Below, piece after piece: positions 51,269 to 60,632 of a DNA stretch of 64,000 nucleotides (positions are counted from its first letter, which is position 1; each line of letters opens with the position of its first letter). Below the pieces are notes generated by a model. The model was given only the letters and a program-made list of their open reading frames with translations, made no database searches and was not told the origin of the DNA. Origin of the DNA: Halopseudomonas pelagia. Lineage in GTDB: Bacteria; Pseudomonadota; Gammaproteobacteria; Pseudomonadales; Pseudomonadaceae. The stretch lies in assembly GCF_009497895.1 (NCBI RefSeq), contig NZ_CP033116.1:1-64000 (forward strand), read 5' to 3'. A program made the translations under genes and the position numbers.

Positions 51269-53383
51269 CTAGGGCGCCGGAACCTCGGGTGCGCTTCGGT
51301 TTTTCGATACCTCAACCCCTGCTTTGTCATCCAACAGGGCCTGTGTTGCAGCTTGCACATAGGCCTTAAGCTCCTCTTGCAAGCGCTTTGGCTTAGGCAC
51401 CGCTGTTTGCAGGATGGCCTTCGGCTCGGCGCCTAACTGATACCGGTAAAGCCTGGGTTCTTCGTCGCGCGGTTGAATCAGCACGTTATCCCCACGGATG
51501 ATGCCCACGGTCTGGCCGCCACCGGATGGCTTGATCACACCCACACCTTGATCATCTGCTGGCAGCGTAAGCAAATCGCGTCCCCAGCATTGGTGTCGAA
51601 CCTCGCCACCGAGTCGGCCCATGATGGTGGGTACGATATCCACCTGGGTACCGACGACGTCATTCTGCTCGCCAAAGCGCTCGATCATGCCCGGAGCGAT
51701 CAGTAGCAGGGGTACATGGAAGCGCAACAGGTCCAGTTCCGTCAGTTGCTGTGGAGTCCCAAAGCCGTGGTCGCCGACGATGACGAACAGTGTCTGGTCG
51801 TAGTAAGGCTCATCCCTGATCTGTTCGAAGAAACGGCCCAACGCCCAGTCGGAATAGCGCATAGCGCTCAGGTGTTCGTTCGCATAGCTTCCCTGGTCGG
51901 TAACCTCGTCCACTGGCAGGGTATCGGGTAGAGCATAGGGGGTGTGGTTCGACAGGGTCTGCAGCAGTGCATAAAAAGGGCGATCGGGATCGAGTTGGCG
52001 CAGCTCTATGACGGCCCGATCAAACATGTCCTGGTCGGAAACGCCCCAGGTGGGGTCAGACACCACCGGGTTTACATAGTCATTGCGACCGATGAATCGC
52101 GTCATGCCCTGATTACCGAAAAAGCCGCGCTGGTTGTCCCAGGCAAAGTCGCCATTGTAGACGTACAGATCGTCGAAACCGCGTGCGCCAAGCAACTGAG
52201 GCAAACCTGAAAACTGATTGCCGCCCTCCGGCTCCTGCATCAGATATTCGAACGCAGGCAGGTTGGGAAAGCACCCCATGGTGGCGAACATGCCCTGATG
52301 AGTATGGGTGCCGCTGGAGAAGTGACGGGTAAACAACAACCCCTGCTTGCTGAGCTTGTCGAACTCGAGGGTTATCTGCAGCGAGGAGCCGAGCGCGCCA
52401 GTGTAGTAGCCCGCAAAGCTTTCCATCAGAATCACGACCACGTTGCGGATCGGCAGCGTGGCGTCCTCGGGCGGATAATAGTCGCGGCGCACCGGAGCCA
52501 GCTCAGGTTCGACCAACTGGTCGTGTACGCCGAGCAGCATCTGTCGGGTGATCCCAGTCGCCTGCTCTGCAGGAATCAAGTCGACCCAGGCGTTGTCGCG
52601 GTGCTCCGAGTACTGGGCTTTCGCTGCGCCATAGAGGGTCAAGGAGGGTGTCAGTCCCAGCTGGTTGGCGAACATCGAGTCGGTAGTAAAAGCATCACCC
52701 CATCGCAGTGGCGGACCCTGGCGCAGCGTGCCTCGGGCCAATACGGTAGCGCTGAGCAGCAATAGAACTAGCACGCCCAGCCGGGCCGCCATCGCTCCCC
52801 GTTGGGTCATTCTTATCCTGTTGGCATCTGCTGGCTGGCGGGTGTGTCGGTCAAGCCAGCGGATAAGCCAGTACATCAACAGCGATACAATCGCCAGAGT
52901 CAGCACCAGCCGTACTACAGGAAACCCGTACCAGAGCATGCGTAGCACAGTAGTGGGATCTTCCTGCAGGTATTGAAACACCAGTGCGTTCAGACGCTGA
53001 TGAAATTCTCGGTAGAAGTTCAGCTCTATTACACCCAACAAACTCAACAACAAGGCTGTCAGGGTCAGCCAGATACATTGCAGTGTGCGCAATTGCATGA
53101 GCCTGGAGCTGAGGAATGTCAGGATCAACGGTGCCCCTGCAATCATTACCAAGCGCACGTCAAAGCGCAGGCCGTTGTAGATGCCTTCGCCCAGATCCGA
53201 CCATGAGGCGTCTGCGGCCAGCTCCCAGTTGAAGGTCAGCAGTGCCACACGCAGGCATGTCAGTAATAGGGTGAGCGCAAACAGTGTCGAAAGCACAAAG
53301 AATAATTGGCTACGCAGGCCAACGGTCGACCGAGGCAGCTCAGGGGTATCAGGAGAAGTACGCATGACTATGGGGATTTCCAT
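51269..53383 (-). CDS. LTA synthase-like sulfatase-fold membrane protein
   Basis: A 704-residue inner-membrane protein. Five hydrophobic helices lie in the first 220 residues, then an extracytoplasmic alkaline-phosphatase/sulfatase domain. Glu321 (VVILMESFAGYY) and Thr359/Thr361 (SSGTHTHQGMFATM) match the metal ligand and nucleophile of LtaS/MdoB enzymes, with GDHGFG later. It would transfer a phosphoglycerol or related group from a phospholipid to a glycan, releasing diacylglycerol. It is the last gene of a four-gene operon, just after dgkA, whose product consumes diacylglycerol. The start is uncertain (ATG at 53383 or 53365). Confidence 0.87.
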   Translation of the reverse strand: MEIPIVMRTSPDTPELPRSTVGLRSQLFFVLSTLFALTLLLTCLRVALLTFNWELAADASWSDLGEGIYNGLRFDVRLVMIAGAPLILTFLSSRLMQLRTLQCIWLTLTALLLSLLGVIELNFYREFHQRLNALVFQYLQEDPTTVLRMLWYGFPVVRLVLTLAIVSLLMYWLIRWLDRHTRQPADANRIRMTQRGAMAARLGVLVLLLLSATVLARGTLRQGPPLRWGDAFTTDSMFANQLGLTPSLTLYGAAKAQYSEHRDNAWVDLIPAEQATGITRQMLLGVHDQLVEPELAPVRRDYYPPEDATLPIRNVVVILMESFAGYYTGALGSSLQITLEFDKLSKQGLLFTRHFSSGTHTHQGMFATMGCFPNLPAFEYLMQEPEGGNQFSGLPQLLGARGFDDLYVYNGDFAWDNQRGFFGNQGMTRFIGRNDYVNPVVSDPTWGVSDQDMFDRAVIELRQLDPDRPFYALLQTLSNHTPYALPDTLPVDEVTDQGSYANEHLSAMRYSDWALGRFFEQIRDEPYYDQTLFVIVGDHGFGTPQQLTELDLLRFHVPLLLIAPGMIERFGEQNDVVGTQVDIVPTIMGRLGGEVRHQCWGRDLLTLPADDQGVGVIKPSGGGQTVGIIRGDNVLIQPRDEEPRLYRYQLGAEPKAILQTAVPKPKRLQEELKAYVQAATQALLDDKAGVEVSKNRSAPEVPAP

Positions 53384-53412: not shown

Positions 53413-53805
53413 CTAGATCAATATCACCAACCAGACGGTAAGAATCATCAGTAGCGATATAAGCTGCGCAGCGCTGCCCATATCCTTGGCCTGCTTGGAG
53501 AGGGGATGCAGTTCCAATGAAATACGATCAACTACAGCTTCTATAGCCGAGTTGAGCAGTTCTACGATCAGCGCCGCAAACACCACTAGTAGCAGTATCG
53601 CGCGCTCGATCGAGCTGACGTCCAATACCACGGCCAGCGGAACCAGTACCGCGCTCAGCGCTAGCAACTGGCGAAACGCCGCTTCTCCAGTGAAGGCCGC
53701 CCGCAGCCCTGCCACTGAATAACCTGTGGCTTTGAACACCCGACCTAGACCGCCACGGCTTTTCAACGCAAGTGCGTTGCTGCTGGATACGGAATCAGGC
53801 TTCAT
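53413..53805 (-). CDS. dgkA: Diacylglycerol kinase
   Basis: A 130-residue integral membrane kinase phosphorylating diacylglycerol to phosphatidate. Three helices are evident. The conserved EAAFRQLLAL surface helix and VELLNSAIEAVVDRISLE, with the catalytic Glu/Asn, are characteristic. Its start overlaps the LPS-kinase gene by 11 bp, and the sulfatase gene follows 29 bp on. This position suggests it recycles diacylglycerol made by the sulfatase-fold transferases nearby. Confidence 0.92.
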   Translation of the reverse strand: MKPDSVSSSNALALKSRGGLGRVFKATGYSVAGLRAAFTGEAAFRQLLALSAVLVPLAVVLDVSSIERAILLLVVFAALIVELLNSAIEAVVDRISLELHPLSKQAKDMGSAAQLISLLMILTVWLVILI

Positions 53806-54433
53806 CTGTATCTACCTGACATTCCAGTTGCGGGTTGTGATAACACTCCCGCAGATAGCTCCAGTCTGCCTCAGGCATGTCACCACGGCGGCGTCGGAGC
53901 TGGGAAAGATCATGGTTTATTGCCTTGCTACGCAGGAGCCTGATACGGCTTTTCTCCAGATCCAGAAGAGCCACTTCCGGCACCTTTGCAGTCAGGCTGA
54001 TGTAAACATGTTTGCTATACAGGCTACCGTGTTGTCTGCGCCTGCGACGCAGTCTTTGCAGCACCAGCGCGAGGCGGCGAAGCACGGCTTTACGACTAGT
54101 TTCGTCCAGCTTGGGCGCGTGCTCGGCATACCATTGGTCCAGGCTGACAAAGCCACTCAGCTCTTCGGTGATCAGCAGTGCCTGCTGTTCACGTAATACA
54201 GTAGGCAGGCCAAATGGATGGCACCAGGAACGAAACAGATGGCCGATCTGGCGCTTGCAGTAAAGCGGGCGTTGCTCGGGCTGTAGCGGTGGTAGCAGCT
54301 TGACGCCACTCTCACCGCCGCGACGATGGTTCGGCTCCTCGACCCAATGACCGTCCATGCTCCACCAATGCTCAAAGCCATACTGACTGAAGCTGGAAAG
54401 CAGCCCGCAGGGCTGCCAGGATGCACTAGTCAC
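53795..54433 (-). CDS. LPS kinase-like protein (WapQ/InaA family)
   Basis: A 212-residue protein of the Kdo/WaaP kinase-like fold. It has LDQWYAEHAPKLD, an Arg-rich stretch RLRRRRRQHGSLYSKHVYI resembling the catalytic loop (H-G-S/D-x-x), and VALLDLEKSR where the kinase DxE metal site would be. It starts with GTG, overlapping the methyltransferase stop (GTGA). In P. fluorescens a methyltransferase/wapQ operon lies after colRS, the same order as here. It may phosphorylate a core heptose. Confidence 0.78.
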   Translation of the reverse strand: MTSASWQPCGLLSSFSQYGFEHWWSMDGHWVEEPNHRRGGESGVKLLPPLQPEQRPLYCKRQIGHLFRSWCHPFGLPTVLREQQALLITEELSGFVSLDQWYAEHAPKLDETSRKAVLRRLALVLQRLRRRRRQHGSLYSKHVYISLTAKVPEVALLDLEKSRIRLLRSKAINHDLSQLRRRRGDMPEADWSYLRECYHNPQLECQVDTDEA

Positions 54434-55122
54434 GGGCGCACCTTACGCAGAACATAAACGCGCCACATGGCGTAACCGGGCAGAAAGTCATGGTGATTAA
54501 GAATGCTGAAACCGGCCTGACGGAACTCGCTCTCGATGGTGTCGCGGCCGACCAGGAAACGGTTCTGGTTGTCTGATCGATTGCCCCGAGCGTTACGGCG
54601 TGCCTCCAGTCGTTTGCGCTTCCAGGCCTTGTAATTGCCATCGACCCAGAGGGAGATGATCACCGTGTCGCGGGTGACTCGGCAAAATTCATGCAGCATG
54701 GCCAGACGGTGTTCGGGGTCGGCAACGTGATGGATCAGGCGCATGCAGAAAATGCTGTCCACCGAATTGTCGCCCAGATCGATGTCGAAGGCCGAGGCCT
54801 GGAATGTCTTGACCCTTTCGACAATTTCAGGTGGCTGGCCTGCCATCGCGGTTGTCAGCATATCGGCGGAGTTGTCGGCTGCCAGGATCACGCGATTGGG
54901 AGCTTCTGCCAGCAGGGGCCAGAACCGGCCCGCGCCGCAGGGCAGATCGAGCACCAGGTTGGGTTCGCCTGCATCTTTCAGTGCGTGTCGCGCCAGCTGC
55001 ATATCGCGCCAGTTCGAAAGGCGACGAGCCAGCCCTGCCTGGTGTTTTTGCAGATACTGATAGGCATGCTGCTGATCATACTTCTCGGAAAATTCCAGCT
55101 TGATCGCTTTGGCTTTGGACAT
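54430..55122 (-). CDS. Class I SAM-dependent methyltransferase, ColR-linked
   Basis: A 230-residue cytoplasmic methyltransferase starting MSKAKAIKLEFSEKYDQQHA at 55122. An upstream Met (55164) lies in the regulatory region and is less likely. SAM motif I is LVLDLPCGAGRFW; the acidic strand-2 end is AADNSADML; motif post-I SAFDIDLGDNSVD. The substrate is unknown, perhaps a lipid or LPS part. It heads a four-gene operon (with the LPS kinase-like gene, dgkA and the sulfatase), behind four 11-bp-spaced direct repeats. Confidence 0.82.
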   Translation of the reverse strand: MSKAKAIKLEFSEKYDQQHAYQYLQKHQAGLARRLSNWRDMQLARHALKDAGEPNLVLDLPCGAGRFWPLLAEAPNRVILAADNSADMLTTAMAGQPPEIVERVKTFQASAFDIDLGDNSVDSIFCMRLIHHVADPEHRLAMLHEFCRVTRDTVIISLWVDGNYKAWKRKRLEARRNARGNRSDNQNRFLVGRDTIESEFRQAGFSILNHHDFLPGYAMWRVYVLRKVRP

Positions 55123-55170
55123 TGCAGGGCTCTCGGATATGTTTATCCGGGCCAGAATATCCAACAGTGG

Positions 55171-55208
55171 GTCAAGTGCTTGTCAAAAGAGTGTCAAAAT
55201 TTCGTGAA
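55171..55208 (-). promoter_or_regulatory. Four 11-bp-phased direct repeats, candidate ColR operator
   Basis: On the plus strand GTCAA starts at 55171, 55182 and 55193 and GTGAA at 55204, all 11 bp apart. On the minus strand these read TTSAC. Overlapping pairs match the ColR consensus I remember, YYNA(C/G)NNYTTTTT(C/G)AC, with one or two mismatches. The array lies between colS and the methyltransferase operon, which ColR controls in P. fluorescens. Confidence 0.7.
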
Positions 55209-55214
55209 AGCCCG

Positions 55215-56477
55215 CTAGATCAGCGTGACCTCAAAGCAACTCCCCTCGGTAGGCAGAGAATACATCCGCACTTCCCAGCACTGGTATGCGCAGATGCGCT
55301 TGACCAGTGAAAGCCCCAGTCCCAATCCTTCGCCCCGTGCTTCTGAGCCGCGCACGAAGGGTTTGAAGATATCGTCCTGCTGCGCGCTGGGTACCCCTTG
55401 GCCACTATCTTCTACTCGGAAGCCGTTGGCCGACAGCAGCAGGCGTATCTCGCCTTTTGCGGTATAATGCAGGGCGTTGCGGATCAGATTGGACATGACG
55501 GTGCTGAGAAACCCCTCGTGGAATAGCATATCGTTAGGCTCTTCTACAATAAGGTGAAAACCCAGGCCCTGGTCAGCAAAACGCGGTGCCCAGCGCTTTG
55601 CTTGCTCGTGCGCGACCTGCTCAAGTGTGGCGCTGCCGCTCAAAGGATTCTGGAGAGTGTTGGCGCGGGCCAGCAACAGGAAGGTTTCCACCAGTTCGCT
55701 TATTTCTGCACTGGCGCGCTTTATACGGTTCAATTGACGGTGCTCGCGTTCATCCAGCGTAGCGGTCTCAAGCAATTCTGCAGAAGAAGCGATGACCATC
55801 AGCGGGGTACGCAGCTCATGGCTGACGTCGCTGGTAAAAAAGCGCTCGCGCTCCAGCGAGCTACGCAGTTGTCCCAGGGTGGCATCGAAGGCTGCGGCAA
55901 CATGACCCACCTCATCTTCTGGATAATCCGGCGCCAGATGAGGCGCGAGGGTATGCAGTTGATCACGGTGGCGAATCTGCTGAGCAAGTCGCGCCAGGGG
56001 AGCTATGATGGTGCGCGCCATCATCCAGCCGAGCAGCCAGGCAGCCAGACCGCTTAGAATGAAGCCAGCGAAAACGACGGTGAAAAGCGCAGTCTCCCGT
56101 GCCTCGAATTCGGCTTGTTCGCGCACCAGCATGAAACGTTGCTGGGGCGTATCATGGACGTACAGGTAGTAGGCACCCGTCTCATCGACGATCTCGCTGA
56201 AGCCATCATCCAGGCCGATAAAGTTCGCAGGGATCTCGTAGCCTGGTATGTGCGAAGCAAATAGTCGGGTTTTGGCGTCCAGTCTGGGAGGCAGGCCCTG
56301 GGCCAGATCCTTGTGGAGAATACTGTCCAGCTCCTCTGCCATGCCTTGGGTAACCAGATGCTCTTCGATAAAGTGCACTATCGCGACAATACCCAGGGAG
56401 AAGCCCCCGCTGACCAGCAACGTCATCAGGGTGAATGCAAAGATGATGCGGCGAACCAGCGGTTGTTTAGTCTTCAT
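55215..56477 (-). CDS. colS: Sensor histidine kinase, ColS-like
   Basis: A 420-residue membrane kinase from the ATG at 56477, overlapping the colR stop by 11 bp. Two helices (about 10-33 and 132-152) flank a periplasmic domain. A HAMP segment, the H box SDVSHELRTPL (His220) and the ATPase boxes (SNLIRNALHYT; GVPSAQQDDIF; GLGLGLSLV) follow. Periplasmic His35, Glu38 and an ExxE at 120-123 recall the zinc/iron-sensing residues of P. putida ColS, though I could not check their alignment. Confidence 0.78.
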   Translation of the reverse strand: MKTKQPLVRRIIFAFTLMTLLVSGGFSLGIVAIVHFIEEHLVTQGMAEELDSILHKDLAQGLPPRLDAKTRLFASHIPGYEIPANFIGLDDGFSEIVDETGAYYLYVHDTPQQRFMLVREQAEFEARETALFTVVFAGFILSGLAAWLLGWMMARTIIAPLARLAQQIRHRDQLHTLAPHLAPDYPEDEVGHVAAAFDATLGQLRSSLERERFFTSDVSHELRTPLMVIASSAELLETATLDEREHRQLNRIKRASAEISELVETFLLLARANTLQNPLSGSATLEQVAHEQAKRWAPRFADQGLGFHLIVEEPNDMLFHEGFLSTVMSNLIRNALHYTAKGEIRLLLSANGFRVEDSGQGVPSAQQDDIFKPFVRGSEARGEGLGLGLSLVKRICAYQCWEVRMYSLPTEGSCFEVTLI

Positions 56478-57150
56478 TGTCGCGCTCGGCAAGACAGTAG
56501 CCCATGCCATGCAGGTTGTGCAGCAGGGGCCGGGCAAAGGGTTTATCGATCACCTGACGTAGCTGGTGCACATGGCTGCGCAGGCTGTCGCTGTCGGGTA
56601 GTTCCTCGCCCCACAGGGCCTCTTCCAACACTGCGCGGCGAACCACCGCCGGGCTTTTGCGCATCAGTACTTCCAGTAGTTTCAGACCTACCGGGTTGAG
56701 CTTGAGCATTCTGCCCTGACGGGTGACCTGCAGGGTATCGAGGTCGTAACTGAGATCGGCTACCTGCAGTTGATGTTTGGCGCCGCCCTGGCTGCGCCGC
56801 AGTATGGCTTCTATGCGTGCTACCAGTTCAGACAGAGCGAAGGGCTTGACCAGATAATCATCAGCACCACTTTTCAGGCCTTTGAGACGGTCTTCCAGCT
56901 GGTCGCGCGCGGTCAGCATGATGATCGGTGTGTCGCGCTGGGCATCGTCGCGCATACGCTGACACAACTGATAACCGTCGATGCCTGGCAGCATGATATC
57001 CAGCACGATCAGATCGTAATGCTCGCTGACCGCCAGATGCAGGCCGGACAGCCCGTCCTGGGCGCAGTCTACCGTGTAGCCCTTGCCCTGCAGGTAATCC
57101 AGCACGTTGGCCAGAATGTCACGATTGTCTTCGATTACCAGAATACGCAT
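56467..57150 (-). CDS. colR: OmpR-family response regulator, ColR-like
   Basis: A 227-residue regulator. The receiver has Asp51 (LIVLDIMLPG) as phospho-acceptor, with MLTARDQLEDRL and Lys in VKPFALSEL. The winged-helix domain ends SLRSHVHQLRQVIDKPF, LHNLHGMGYCL. The wording of both domains is close to P. putida ColR as I recall it. It is the first gene of colRS. A ColR-type repeat lies just upstream of its start, shared with the divergent sulfatase operon. Confidence 0.82.
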   Translation of the reverse strand: MRILVIEDNRDILANVLDYLQGKGYTVDCAQDGLSGLHLAVSEHYDLIVLDIMLPGIDGYQLCQRMRDDAQRDTPIIMLTARDQLEDRLKGLKSGADDYLVKPFALSELVARIEAILRRSQGGAKHQLQVADLSYDLDTLQVTRQGRMLKLNPVGLKLLEVLMRKSPAVVRRAVLEEALWGEELPDSDSLRSHVHQLRQVIDKPFARPLLHNLHGMGYCLAERDNED

Positions 57151-57180
57151 CCATCGGCCTCATCAATTGGAACCTGTTAA

Positions 57181-57207
57181 CTAACACTTTTTTCACAGCG
57201 CCTTAAC
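57181..57207 (+). promoter_or_regulatory. ColR-type direct repeats between colR and the second sulfatase gene
   Basis: CTAAC (57181), TTCAC (57192) and TTAAC (57203) repeat at 11-bp spacing. The first 16 bases, CTAACACTTTTTTCAC, match the remembered ColR consensus at every defined position. The site lies 59-85 bp before the sulfatase gene and 31-57 bp upstream of colR. Confidence 0.7.
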
Positions 57208-57265
57208 GAGCTGCTGACAGCAGTATGCCCACACTTGCGCCAGTCTCATCAATGCGGATCATACA

Positions 57266-59224
57266 ATGCACCTGTTCAAGTTTGCGCAAGCACGTTATCT
57301 CGCCATTATTTCTCTGGTCTGGCTGGCAATTTTCATCCTGACTCGCACCCTGTTGCTATCGACTCACCTCGATGAGGCGCAGTTAGGCTTGGTCAGCACC
57401 CTGGCGCTTTACGGCCAGGGTGGCATCTATGATCTGGTCTTTCTGCTGTATGCGCTGGCTCCAATGACTCTTTACCTGTTGCTGTGTCCGAGGCGGGTCT
57501 GGCAAAGCCGCTGGAATCAGCGACTGCTGCAGCTTTTACTTACCCTGAGCATTTTCATCATGCTGTTCACGGCGATATCCGAATGGCTGTTCTGGGATGA
57601 GTTCAGTGTGCGGTTCAACTTCATCGCGGTCGATTATCTGGTGTACTCCGATGAAGTGCTCAACAACATTCTCGAATCCTATCCGGTTTACCCGCTGCTG
57701 GGTGTATTGGCATTGATTGCTGTCGCTATCACCTTGAGCCTGCGTGGTGCCATGCGCCGTGTTGCATTGGCGCCCCTGCTGTCGTGGCGCCAACGGGGTA
57801 TGGTCCTTGGCAGCTGGGCGTTGTTGTTAGCGCTGAGCGTCGGCGTGGTGGGTCAGGACTTTCCGCGCAATAGCGGTGGTAACGCCTATCAGCACGAGTT
57901 GTCGGCCAACGGGCCCTATCAGTTTTTTGCGGCCTTTCGTAATAATCAGCTGGATTACGAACAGTTCTATCCTGTGCTGCCGTTGAAGCAGGTCGCCAAA
58001 CGCATGCGCGATGAAGTGCGTGAGCCCAATGCCGTGTTTGTGGACAGTAATCCCCTGAGCATTCGCCGGCTTATCGACAACCCTGGCCAACCCGTGCCCA
58101 TGAACGTGATTCTGGTGACCATCGAAAGCCTGAGCGCTAAATACCTCGGTAGTGAAGGCGACACCCGTGGGCTAAGTCCGGAGCTGGACGCGCTGCGCCA
58201 GCAGAGTCTGTATTTCAGCAATCTGTACGCGACCGGGACCCGCACCACGCGTGGGCTGGAGGCAATTACTCTGTCGATCCCGCCAACCCCAGGCCGCTCG
58301 ATCGTCAAGCGCGTTGGCCGCGAAAGCGGTTTCGCCAGCCTGGGACAGCAATTTACCGCTAAGGGTTATGACAGCGTCTTCATGTATGGCGGGCGTGGCT
58401 ACTTCGACAACATGAACGCCTTCTTTGAGGGGAATGGTTATCGCACTGTCGATCAGGCCAGTGTGCCGGACAGTGAAGTTACCTTTACCAATGCCTGGGG
58501 CATGAGTGATGAAAACCTGTATACCCAGGCCCTGAAAGTAGCTGATGCCGACTTTGCCAAGGGCAGCCCGTTCCTGTTGCAGTTGATGACGACCTCCAAT
58601 CACCGACCCTACAGTTATCCGGAAGGCCGCATCGATATTGCGTCAGGCAGCGGTCGCGAAGGAGCTGTGAAGTACACCGACTATGCTATCGGCGAGTTCC
58701 TGCGCGCAGCGCGGCAGAAGCCCTGGTTTGATAACACGGTATTTGTGTTTATTGCGGACCATACGGCGGGCAGTGCCGGCAAGGAAGATCTGCCTGTCAG
58801 CAGCTATCACATTCCGTTATTCATCTATGCGCCGCAGTTGGTAAAGCCAGCTGAGGTGACCACTCTGACCAGCCAGATTGACCTGGCTCCTACGCTGCTC
58901 GGTTTGTTGAACATGGATTACACCTCGACCTTCTTTGGCCGCAATGTACTGCGCGAGGATGCAGCGCCAGGACGCGCCCTGATTGGCAATTATCAGCATC
59001 TGGGTCTATTTGATGGCCAGAATCTGGCGATTCTCAGCCCGCGTCAATTGACGCGTATGCACGACGATGCGCTGGGTGACAGTCTTGAAAGTACGACCGA
59101 CCAGAGCGATCCGTTGATCGCGAGGAGCATTGCCTACTACGAGGGCTCCAGCTATGCCTTCGGGCATGATTTGCTGGCCTGGCATGCCCTGATGGAACCC
59201 AAAGCGCGGATCAGCCAGAGATGA
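57266..59224 (+). CDS. Second LTA synthase-like sulfatase-fold membrane protein
   Basis: A 652-residue protein with about five N-terminal helices (residues 10-200) and a periplasmic sulfatase-fold domain. The metal and nucleophile region reads VILVTIESLSAKYLGSEGD and GTRTTRGLEAITLS, with FIADHTAG later. It is a paralogue of the 51269-53383 product but closer to MdoB-type phosphoglycerol transferases. It would use a phospholipid donor, leaving diacylglycerol. The stop overlaps the PAP2 start (ATGA). A ColR-type site precedes it. Confidence 0.87.
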   Translation: MHLFKFAQARYLAIISLVWLAIFILTRTLLLSTHLDEAQLGLVSTLALYGQGGIYDLVFLLYALAPMTLYLLLCPRRVWQSRWNQRLLQLLLTLSIFIMLFTAISEWLFWDEFSVRFNFIAVDYLVYSDEVLNNILESYPVYPLLGVLALIAVAITLSLRGAMRRVALAPLLSWRQRGMVLGSWALLLALSVGVVGQDFPRNSGGNAYQHELSANGPYQFFAAFRNNQLDYEQFYPVLPLKQVAKRMRDEVREPNAVFVDSNPLSIRRLIDNPGQPVPMNVILVTIESLSAKYLGSEGDTRGLSPELDALRQQSLYFSNLYATGTRTTRGLEAITLSIPPTPGRSIVKRVGRESGFASLGQQFTAKGYDSVFMYGGRGYFDNMNAFFEGNGYRTVDQASVPDSEVTFTNAWGMSDENLYTQALKVADADFAKGSPFLLQLMTTSNHRPYSYPEGRIDIASGSGREGAVKYTDYAIGEFLRAARQKPWFDNTVFVFIADHTAGSAGKEDLPVSSYHIPLFIYAPQLVKPAEVTTLTSQIDLAPTLLGLLNMDYTSTFFGRNVLREDAAPGRALIGNYQHLGLFDGQNLAILSPRQLTRMHDDALGDSLESTTDQSDPLIARSIAYYEGSSYAFGHDLLAWHALMEPKARISQR

Positions 59225-59961
59225 GGGCGCAAATACAGGTTTCCAGACCATTCAATTTCCGACTTTGGCTGGCACTACCGCTCAGTTTGATGGCTCTGAT
59301 GCTGCTGGTTGATCCGGGTCCGCTGGATGTGGCCATCTCCAACCTGCTCTATCAGCCAGGGGAGGGCTTCATTGGCCGTCACAGCTTCTTTCTGGAGGAT
59401 ATTCTGCATGACCGCGCCAAGCAGGCGGTCATAGTGATCGGTGTGTTGGCCATCGTGGGGTTTCTGCTTAGCCTTTTACCTACGCGGCTGCGGGTCTACC
59501 GGCGGTCGCTTGGCTATCTGGTGTGAGCCATGGCGCTATGCACCAGTCTCGTGACGCCCCTTAAGGCGCTGACCAATGTGCACTGCCCCTGGAGCCTTCA
59601 GCAATACGGTGGTGATCAGGTGCATACACCATTACTGAGCGAACGGCCTCCGAGCGATAAGGCTGGCCGGTGCTGGCCGGGCGGCCATGCTTCCTCAGGG
59701 TTTTCCTTGCTGGCACTGTTTTTCATGCTCCGTGATCGGCATCCGCGCACCGCGCGTGGGGCGCTGATTCTGGCGCTGACCCTCGGGGTGATATTCTCGG
59801 TCGGGCGCACCATGCAGGGGGCGCATTTCTTGTCGCATAACCTTTGGACGCTGCTGTTTGACTGGTGCATCTGCGTAATCTGTTACCGACTGCTCCTGTA
59901 CCGCTCACCCGGAGCTGCATCGGCTGCGACTACCGGCGTAGGCACCCCATGCATATCATGA
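59221..59961 (+). pseudogene. PAP2-family lipid phosphatase interrupted by an in-frame TGA
   Basis: One continuous frame encodes a membrane phosphatase, but codon 102 (59524-59526) is TGA. Upstream, three hydrophobic helices end at RRSLGYLV. Downstream the same frame resumes with AMALCTSLVTPLKALTNVHC, then the PAP2 motifs PSDKAGRCWPGGHASSG and GRTMQGAHFLSHNLW. The catalytic residues all lie after the stop. A change of one base from TGG or a similar codon would explain it. An ATG two codons later (59530) lacks a strong ribosome site. Unbroken, it would dephosphorylate lipid A, undecaprenyl or phosphatidyl substrates. Confidence 0.8.
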
Positions 59962-60632
59962 CCCGGCGGCGCCTTGTACACCTGGCGGCCTGGCTGGCTT
60001 TGCCTCTGGTTATTCTGGCTATAGTCGCTCTATGGCGTCCGGACGTGTTGCGCAGCAGTCACGTGGAAATACCTCGGCCGACCCTCACGGACCAGCAGGC
60101 TCGACCTGCTGCCTGGGCCCAGCCGCTGGCCCCAACTTTTCTTTTCCACGCGCTGAGTCCAACGCTTTACCGCAGTGCGTTGCCCAGCGGGGGCGATATC
60201 GTCGCGCTGCAGGAGAATGGCATTCGCACAGTGATCAACCTGCATCAGCAGAGCGATGACCCCTGGCTGGCGGTAAATGATATTCGCAGCGTGCATATGC
60301 CCTTGCGTGGGGATAGGGTTACGGATGCCCAGGTCATTGCTGTGCTGGGCGCCATTCGCGAAGGGGAAAAGCGGGGAGGCGTGCTGGTGCATTGCAAGCA
60401 TGGCCAGAACCGAACCGGGCTGATAAGCGCCATGTATCGTATCGTGTATGACGGCTGGAGTCGGGAGCAAGCCATGGCGGAGATGGTGGAGGGCGGGTTC
60501 GGACCACCTCAGCGCATGACAGATGCAATAGGCTATCTCAACAGGGTCGACGTGGATGCGGTAAAACTGGCGATCAGCAAGGGTGAGTGCAGTACCCGTA
60601 TTCTTGCCTGGTGCCGGCTCAAAGGCGAGTGA
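59958..60632 (+). CDS. Dual-specificity/tyrosine phosphatase-like protein
   Basis: A 224-residue protein. One N-terminal membrane helix (about residues 5-25) is followed by a phosphatase domain with the P-loop HCKHGQNRTG (Cys and Arg of CX5R intact). An upstream Asp in the loop HMPLRGDRVTD is the likely general acid. The ATG at 59958 overlaps the PAP2 stop (ATGA); 59949 is an alternative. Similar anchored phosphatases act on phospholipids or phosphoglycans. The C-terminus ends in a short Cys-containing tail. Confidence 0.82.
   Translation: MTRRRLVHLAAWLALPLVILAIVALWRPDVLRSSHVEIPRPTLTDQQARPAAWAQPLAPTFLFHALSPTLYRSALPSGGDIVALQENGIRTVINLHQQSDDPWLAVNDIRSVHMPLRGDRVTDAQVIAVLGAIREGEKRGGVLVHCKHGQNRTGLISAMYRIVYDGWSREQAMAEMVEGGFGPPQRMTDAIGYLNRVDVDAVKLAISKGECSTRILAWCRLKGE

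Follow-up and report, generated by a model that had tools for sequence, protein, structure and literature searches.

Phased ColR-type half-sites flank colRS in Halopseudomonas pelagia and suggest a four-slot operator serving a local regulon

The colRS locus and its flanking operons

The window is a stretch of 64,000 nucleotides of Halopseudomonas pelagia (NCBI RefSeq assembly GCF_009497895.1, contig NZ_CP033116.1, positions 1 to 64,000). It carries the response regulator gene colR and the sensor kinase gene colS between two operons (Table 1). The ColR protein is 81% identical to that of Pseudomonas ceruminis (L001), and the recognition region is identical in the alignment. ColS contains the sequence FEARE before its second transmembrane helix, which corresponds to the FExRE metal motif of ColS described in PMC4074579. 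The gene order is that of ColRS loci, with methyltransferase and LPS kinase genes after colS and a PAP2 gene divergent from colR. The methyltransferase probably starts at ATG 55122 and not at TTG 55164, because of the position of the predicted promoter. Only a tentative chemistry can be given for the two sulfatase-superfamily proteins, because their matches to the NCBIfam LtaS and phosphoglycerol transferase models are far below the cut-offs.

The PAP2 reading frame contains an in-frame stop. Beside colRS this frame is uninterrupted in 43 of the 45 loci checked, the window and L191 being the exceptions.

Two bands of ColS identity raised the idea that the pair in the window is a paralog of ColRS. 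It was set aside, though a deep duplication may lie further back, because the gene order is shared and ColR is 71–98% identical across the 97 colRS loci presented below, except in L239 and L242 (65%) and in the fragment L196 (48%).

Table 1. Genes, half-site arrays and predicted promoter elements around colRS (window positions).
Feature	Position	Strand	Basis or remark
Sulfatase-superfamily membrane protein	51269..53383	-	nearest LtaS-type models; NCBIfam matches below cut-off
Diacylglycerol kinase DgkA	53413..53805	-	Pfam
LPS kinase, Kdo/WaaP family (InaA-like)	53795..54433	-	InaA model match below cut-off
Methyltransferase (PP0903 position), first gene of left operon	54430..55122	-	domain search
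Predicted -10 TATTCT, left	55154..55159	-	starts 16 bp after slot 4 start
Left ColR-type array, four half-sites	55171..55208	-	direct reading; reads toward methyltransferase
Left slots 1-4: TTCAC, TTGAC, TTGAC, TTGAC	low ends 55204, 55193, 55182, 55171	-	
colS, sensor kinase	55215..56477	-	Pfam; probable ATG start at 56477
colR, response regulator, winged-helix domain	56467..57150	-	Pfam
Right ColR-type array, four half-sites	57181..57218	+	reads toward second sulfatase gene
Right slots 1-4: CTAAC, TTCAC, TTAAC, CTGAC	57181, 57192, 57203, 57214	+	
Predicted -10 CACACT, right	57230..57235	+	starts 16 bp after slot 4 start
Second sulfatase-superfamily protein, first gene of right operon	57266..59224	+	nearest phosphoglycerol transferase I and LtaS models, below cut-off
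PAP2 (PP0900 position)	59221..59961	+	in-frame stop at 59524-59526
Dual-specificity-phosphatase-like protein	59949..60632	+	Pfam

Both intergenic regions contain four half-sites in phase

The left array sits between the colS stop codon (55215-55217) and the methyltransferase ATG. Its slots follow each other at steps of exactly 11 bp, from slot 1 (55208-55204) to slot 4 (55175-55171), and all four GTCAA/GTGAA words of a preliminary description of this locus were found by direct reading. On the other flank the same description had listed CTAAC, TTCAC and TTAAC; these are present, and a fourth half-site, CTGAC, had been missed. Read toward their targets, the two arrays share the form YTNAC-N6-YTNAC-N6-YTNAC-N6-YTNAC. 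The same description also stated that the first 16 bases of the right array fit the ColR consensus. Indeed, the published ColR box YYNASNNYTTTTTSAC is matched by 57181-57196 at every position, with 0 mismatches. In the left array, whose T-tract is weak, the 16-mer closest to this box is 55182-55197 (slots 2-3), and it differs at one position. The spacing between slot 4 and the predicted -10 is equal on the left and right sides. When each of the two intergenic regions was shuffled with its dinucleotides preserved, a run of three YTNAC words was obtained in 2 of 20,000 shuffles. These data confirm that the repeats are real, and the case for them is stronger than first stated.

The 11-bp phase is conserved in related colRS loci

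The comparison covered 97 loci in which colR and colS are neighbours, namely the window, five named records (L001-L005, taken from 80 loci) and 91 regions from the same genus and family. There were 130 ColS matches outside the own genome (hand count), and 100 regions were retrieved; 106 loci were analysed, and the nine without an adjacent colR were dropped. Because some of the 97 loci are duplicated or nearly so (L004 and L213; L178 and L180), an 85% identity filter was applied for the column table and the box-anchored test described below.

Upstream of colR, YTNAC words are separated by 11, 22 and 33 bp in 127, 73 and 27 cases respectively, and downstream of colS in 158, 82 and 22 cases. Any other distance in the range 5 to 60 accounts for at most 11 cases. 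Strict runs of at least three words were detected in 47/97 loci upstream of colR and in 57/97 downstream of colS, versus 0/9,700 and 3/9,700 shuffled regions. The comparison of relatives suggested in the preliminary description thus finds that many of them keep both the repeats and the gene order. That strict runs of three are limited to 47 and 57 loci counts against a reading with four slots. Where the strands differ, the half-sites are oriented away from colRS and toward the targets, by 64 to 2 on the colR side and by 83 to 2 on the colS side. In this the arrays resemble PhoB-type operators, whose 11-bp direct repeats all point to the gene.

Anchoring on the published box reveals slots 3 and 4 and a fixed promoter distance

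The published ColR box, with at most one mismatch, was used as the only anchor after removal of near-duplicates, which avoids selection for the result. A perfect third half-site was found at +11 in 32/37 regions upstream of colR and in 30/46 downstream of colS. Slot 4, at +22, keeps at least three of four positions in 27/37 and 36/46 regions and is perfect in 18/37 and 13/46, which makes it the least conserved slot. One offset outside the slots, -2, is also high on the three-of-four measure and corresponds to the T-tract overlapping slot 2. A -10-like hexamer (NANNNT) is located at exactly +38 in 32/37 regions on the colR side and 38/46 on the colS side, with only 0 to 3 cases at +36, +37, +39 and +40. 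The left array of the window is counted among the -10 misses because its best box match covers slots 2-3, so that it was anchored one slot late. Its weak T-tract and its box mismatch count against the four-slot reading.

In the column table, slot 2 reads TTCAC and the spacer that separates it from slot 1 is rich in T, slot 4 is weaker, and the -10 has the form CANACT or TAGNNT; the anchor of the table was chosen partly by slot score, so its slot columns are biased and the box-only anchoring is the unbiased version. No TTGACA hexamer appears in this table at the -35 positions +15 to +20. In PhoB promoters the -10 stands at a constant distance from the operator, and there is no -35 of its own. 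Judged from sequence, the predicted -10 elements of the ColR-type arrays would follow the same rule.

These results bear on a simpler arrangement, in which a single ColR dimer would occupy the 16-bp box (slots 1-2) and slots 3-4 would be promoter sequence or functionless weak sites. Such an arrangement would agree with the low conservation of slot 4 and with the work on P. putida, where the 16-bp consensus has two direct repeats and is assigned to one dimer (Kivistik et al. 2009, PMC2689224). Two of the seven footprints of that study measure 24-26 bp and the other five 18-46 bp; most are shorter than four slots, which counts against the four-slot reading. The recurrence of slots 3 and 4 in one register with a box-only anchor argues against the one-dimer arrangement, and neither slot stands at normal -35 spacing to the -10. 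In addition, the longest footprint reaches 46 bp, and further, less-conserved boxes are mentioned at oprQ, PP0900/0901 and PP2560/2561 (PMC2689224). We consider it unlikely that one dimer on the box is the whole operator. Several of the seven published P. putida sequences (Table 1 of PMC2689224), though not all, carry further half-sites in phase: the +22 slot is perfect in only 3/7, which also counts against four slots, and the -11 slot keeps at least three of four positions in 4/6, the register of PP0737 being ambiguous in this comparison.

No phased ColR operator of three or four half-sites is described in the literature searched, which left most subscription journals out of reach. The four-part layout with its fixed promoter distance looks undescribed so far, and this predicted operator is the real addition of the present analysis.

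In this genome the phased half-sites occur only beside colRS

A genome scan for ColR sites was also suggested in the preliminary description. In the 4.55-Mb genome, three consecutive YTNAC words at 11 bp occur four times, always within the two arrays (two overlapping triples per array), and the reversed control pattern occurs twice. The ColR box with at most one mismatch has 125 sites vs 167 for the reversed control, which is no enrichment, and its one-mismatch sites are too numerous to be judged singly. An extended pattern with up to two mismatches gives 9 matches vs 25 for its control; only its three matches with 0 mismatches stand out, and all three are inside the arrays. There are six perfect sites for the published consensus in the genome, one of which is the right array. 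The other five were rejected as targets because they are inside ORFs or span an ORF start, as placed from ORF lists only, without annotation.

In the genus (37 genomes), the plain triple pattern as a whole is no commoner than its reversed control (55 vs 70 matches), which counts against the four-slot reading. It is the location of the matches, not their number, that stands out. Forty-two of the 55 are at the colRS locus, where 14/15 ColS-positive genomes have triple matches (hand count), and the remaining 13 are at chance level. Single matches in 6/22 ColS-negative genomes likewise correspond to the control level.

This distribution makes it very improbable that the arrays bind another OmpR/PhoB-family regulator or arose by chance. 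Direct repeats of 11 bp are common to that family, as PMC4415409 illustrates for PhoB, and would suit another member. The link to ColS-positive genomes and to the colRS locus, and the exact published ColR box within the right array, argue against a different regulator. Chance is excluded by the distance peaks, the shuffles and the box-anchored recurrence of the slots and of the -10.

Over the family (148 genomes) the T-rich three-slot pattern has 115 matches vs 7 for the reversed pattern, and 95 of the 115 lie at most 3 kb from a ColS match. Whereas the ColR box alone is a poor predictor, the T-rich three-slot form has much higher specificity (115 vs 7 matches) and lets ColR targets be picked out of a sequence against far less background. 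The preliminary description had taken the repeats to define a local ColR regulon. This seems a fair description in the light of the comparison, as the half-sites are of ColR type and their phased form is confined here to the colRS flanks. The array-bearing regulon would be local because the phased operator occurs in this genome only at colRS, and we regard such a reading as well supported.

The right array follows the divergent operon

An array of at least three half-sites upstream of colR is present in 41/46 loci with a divergent sulfatase or PAP2 gene (33/35 for sulfatase, 8/11 for PAP2) and in 6/51 loci without one. With 31 bp between the right array and the colR start codon, the colR promoter must be near or overlapping, and the array might also, or mainly, control colR itself. 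The half-sites read toward the divergent gene, the array goes with that gene as just described, and the colR promoter of P. putida shows no clear response to ColR (PMC2689224). Autoregulation of colR through this array thus appears quite improbable. The right array would serve the divergent operon and not colR, because of the 41/46 vs 6/51 distribution, in line with the P. putida result.

Arrays mostly do not follow sulfatase genes elsewhere. Away from ColS, 2/16 sulfatase homologs (in G045 and G145) keep a strict array, which counts against the four-slot reading, and 13/16 have none; with identities of 61-65%, many of the 16 could be paralogs. The homolog in G038, a genome without a ColS match at the cut-off, has a degraded array with the right spacing. 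Two sulfatase homologs contain one in-frame TAG each (G043:C1:5723086-5725014 and G071:C10:28118-30031).

In the genus, 15/16 genomes with the methyltransferase and 11/12 with the sulfatase are ColS-positive, so the module seems largely gained or lost as a whole. Four ColS-positive genomes of the genus have no sulfatase. In the ColS-negative genomes, methyltransferase and sulfatase are mostly missing along with colRS.

Comparison with known systems

The seven P. putida sites footprinted with ColR include PP0903 and PP0900, which flank colRS (Kivistik et al. 2009, PMC2689224), so both flanks, for which reporter assays were published as well, were already known targets. PP0900, the PAP2 gene divergent from colR, is bound and activated by ColR in that species (PMC2689224). 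The preliminary description had presented the rightward operon as a new ColR target. This holds for the sulfatase gene placed in front, in the window as in many relatives, but not for PAP2, known as a target since 2009.

Like the window, P. putida has the same regulator pair with methyltransferase and LPS kinase downstream, PAP2 divergent from colR and ColR boxes on both flanks, and there both operons are activated by ColR. The differences are three. First, the box is described in P. putida as 16 bp with two repeats, whereas in the window four half-sites are in phase on each flank of colRS and their distance to the predicted -10 is fixed. Second, the right operon of the window opens with a sulfatase-superfamily gene and the left one adds DgkA and a second sulfatase. 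Third, ColR targets are scattered over the genome in P. putida, and the phased operator was found only at colRS in the genome of the window.

According to PMC4415409, the direct repeats of PhoB boxes are 11 nt long, PhoB binds them head to tail and contacts sigma70, and multiple pho boxes are present for E. coli ugp and in variable numbers in Streptomyces. The window arrays share the 11-bp direct repeats with them. They differ in the half-site (YTNAC vs CTGTCAT for E. coli PhoB) and in the usual array (four vs two).

PMC8306577 describes Xanthomonas RaxRH as orthologous to ColRS and treats lpxE beside colRS as a ColR target. As in the window, the pair adjoins lipid A remodelling genes, including the divergent PAP2-type lpxE; unlike in the window, its neighbours are eptA, lpxE and arnT. 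The term 'binding site' is absent from the main text of that paper.

A model for ColR activation

We consider it likely that the two arrays are ColR operators built to one plan, and that two tandem ColR dimers bound to each would activate both flanking operons. The operator would comprise four direct YTNAC half-sites in 11-bp steps toward the target, followed by a -10 hexamer whose first base is 16 bp downstream of that of slot 4; in most cases the spacer ahead of slot 2 would be rich in T. Excess metal would be sensed by ColS and lead to phosphorylation of ColR, as shown for P. putida in PMC4074579; ColRS systems are characterized by a response to zinc, iron, manganese and cadmium. Two ColR dimers would then bind head to tail on one DNA face, one at slots 1-2 (the published box) and one at slots 3-4. 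The latter slots lie at the position expected for a -35, and the dimer there may bring in RNA polymerase as PhoB does. On the left, the methyltransferase, LPS kinase, DgkA and sulfatase genes would be activated, and on the right the sulfatase, PAP2 and phosphatase genes. It is from their sequence features that we infer ColR binding, two dimers, activation and a metal response at both arrays.

A broader proposal seems to us slightly better than an even bet. The ColR operator would be a two-dimer, four-slot array with a rigid -10 distance, of which the box of 2009 would be the distal high-affinity half; the proximal pair, too weak for the old consensus, would set the metal threshold. In species such as this one, the array-bearing targets would have been gathered in one island around colRS, which a genome has either complete or not at all.

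The arrays give a concrete model of how ColR could activate envelope-lipid genes. They would place PAP2 enzymes, DgkA and sulfatases of LtaS- or phosphoglycerol-transferase-like type under common control.

Additional colRS loci, solitary ColS homologs and distant arrays

One genome of the same genus (G003) carries two colRS-methyltransferase loci, L151 and L163. Their ColS proteins are 91% and 58% identical to that of the window, and arrays are found downstream of colS at both.

The nine loci without an adjacent colR (L188, L189, L192, L193, L194, L197, L198, L199 and L200) belong to one genus, g11, and encode a ColS homolog that is 54-59% identical. In 8/9 of them a gene lies upstream in the same direction (ORFs of 216-591 aa); the one checked, that of L188, is of EptA type (Pfam EptA_B_N). 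The T-rich three-slot array directly follows colS in 7/9 loci, and this position suggests that the solitary ColS is an additional sensor that signals to a ColR encoded at a different locus.

Six genomes of g14 have a near-identical three-slot array, CTTACAT.TTTTTCACG.TTTATTCAC, away from colRS (L287, L288, L289, L297, L299 and G115:C145:9755), with no obvious gene reading from it. Another three-slot array remote from colRS, that of L303 (G052:C1:236051), stands in front of a gene whose putative product looks like a metallophosphatase, and the hexamer CAGACT is found 16 bp downstream of the first base of the last half-site.
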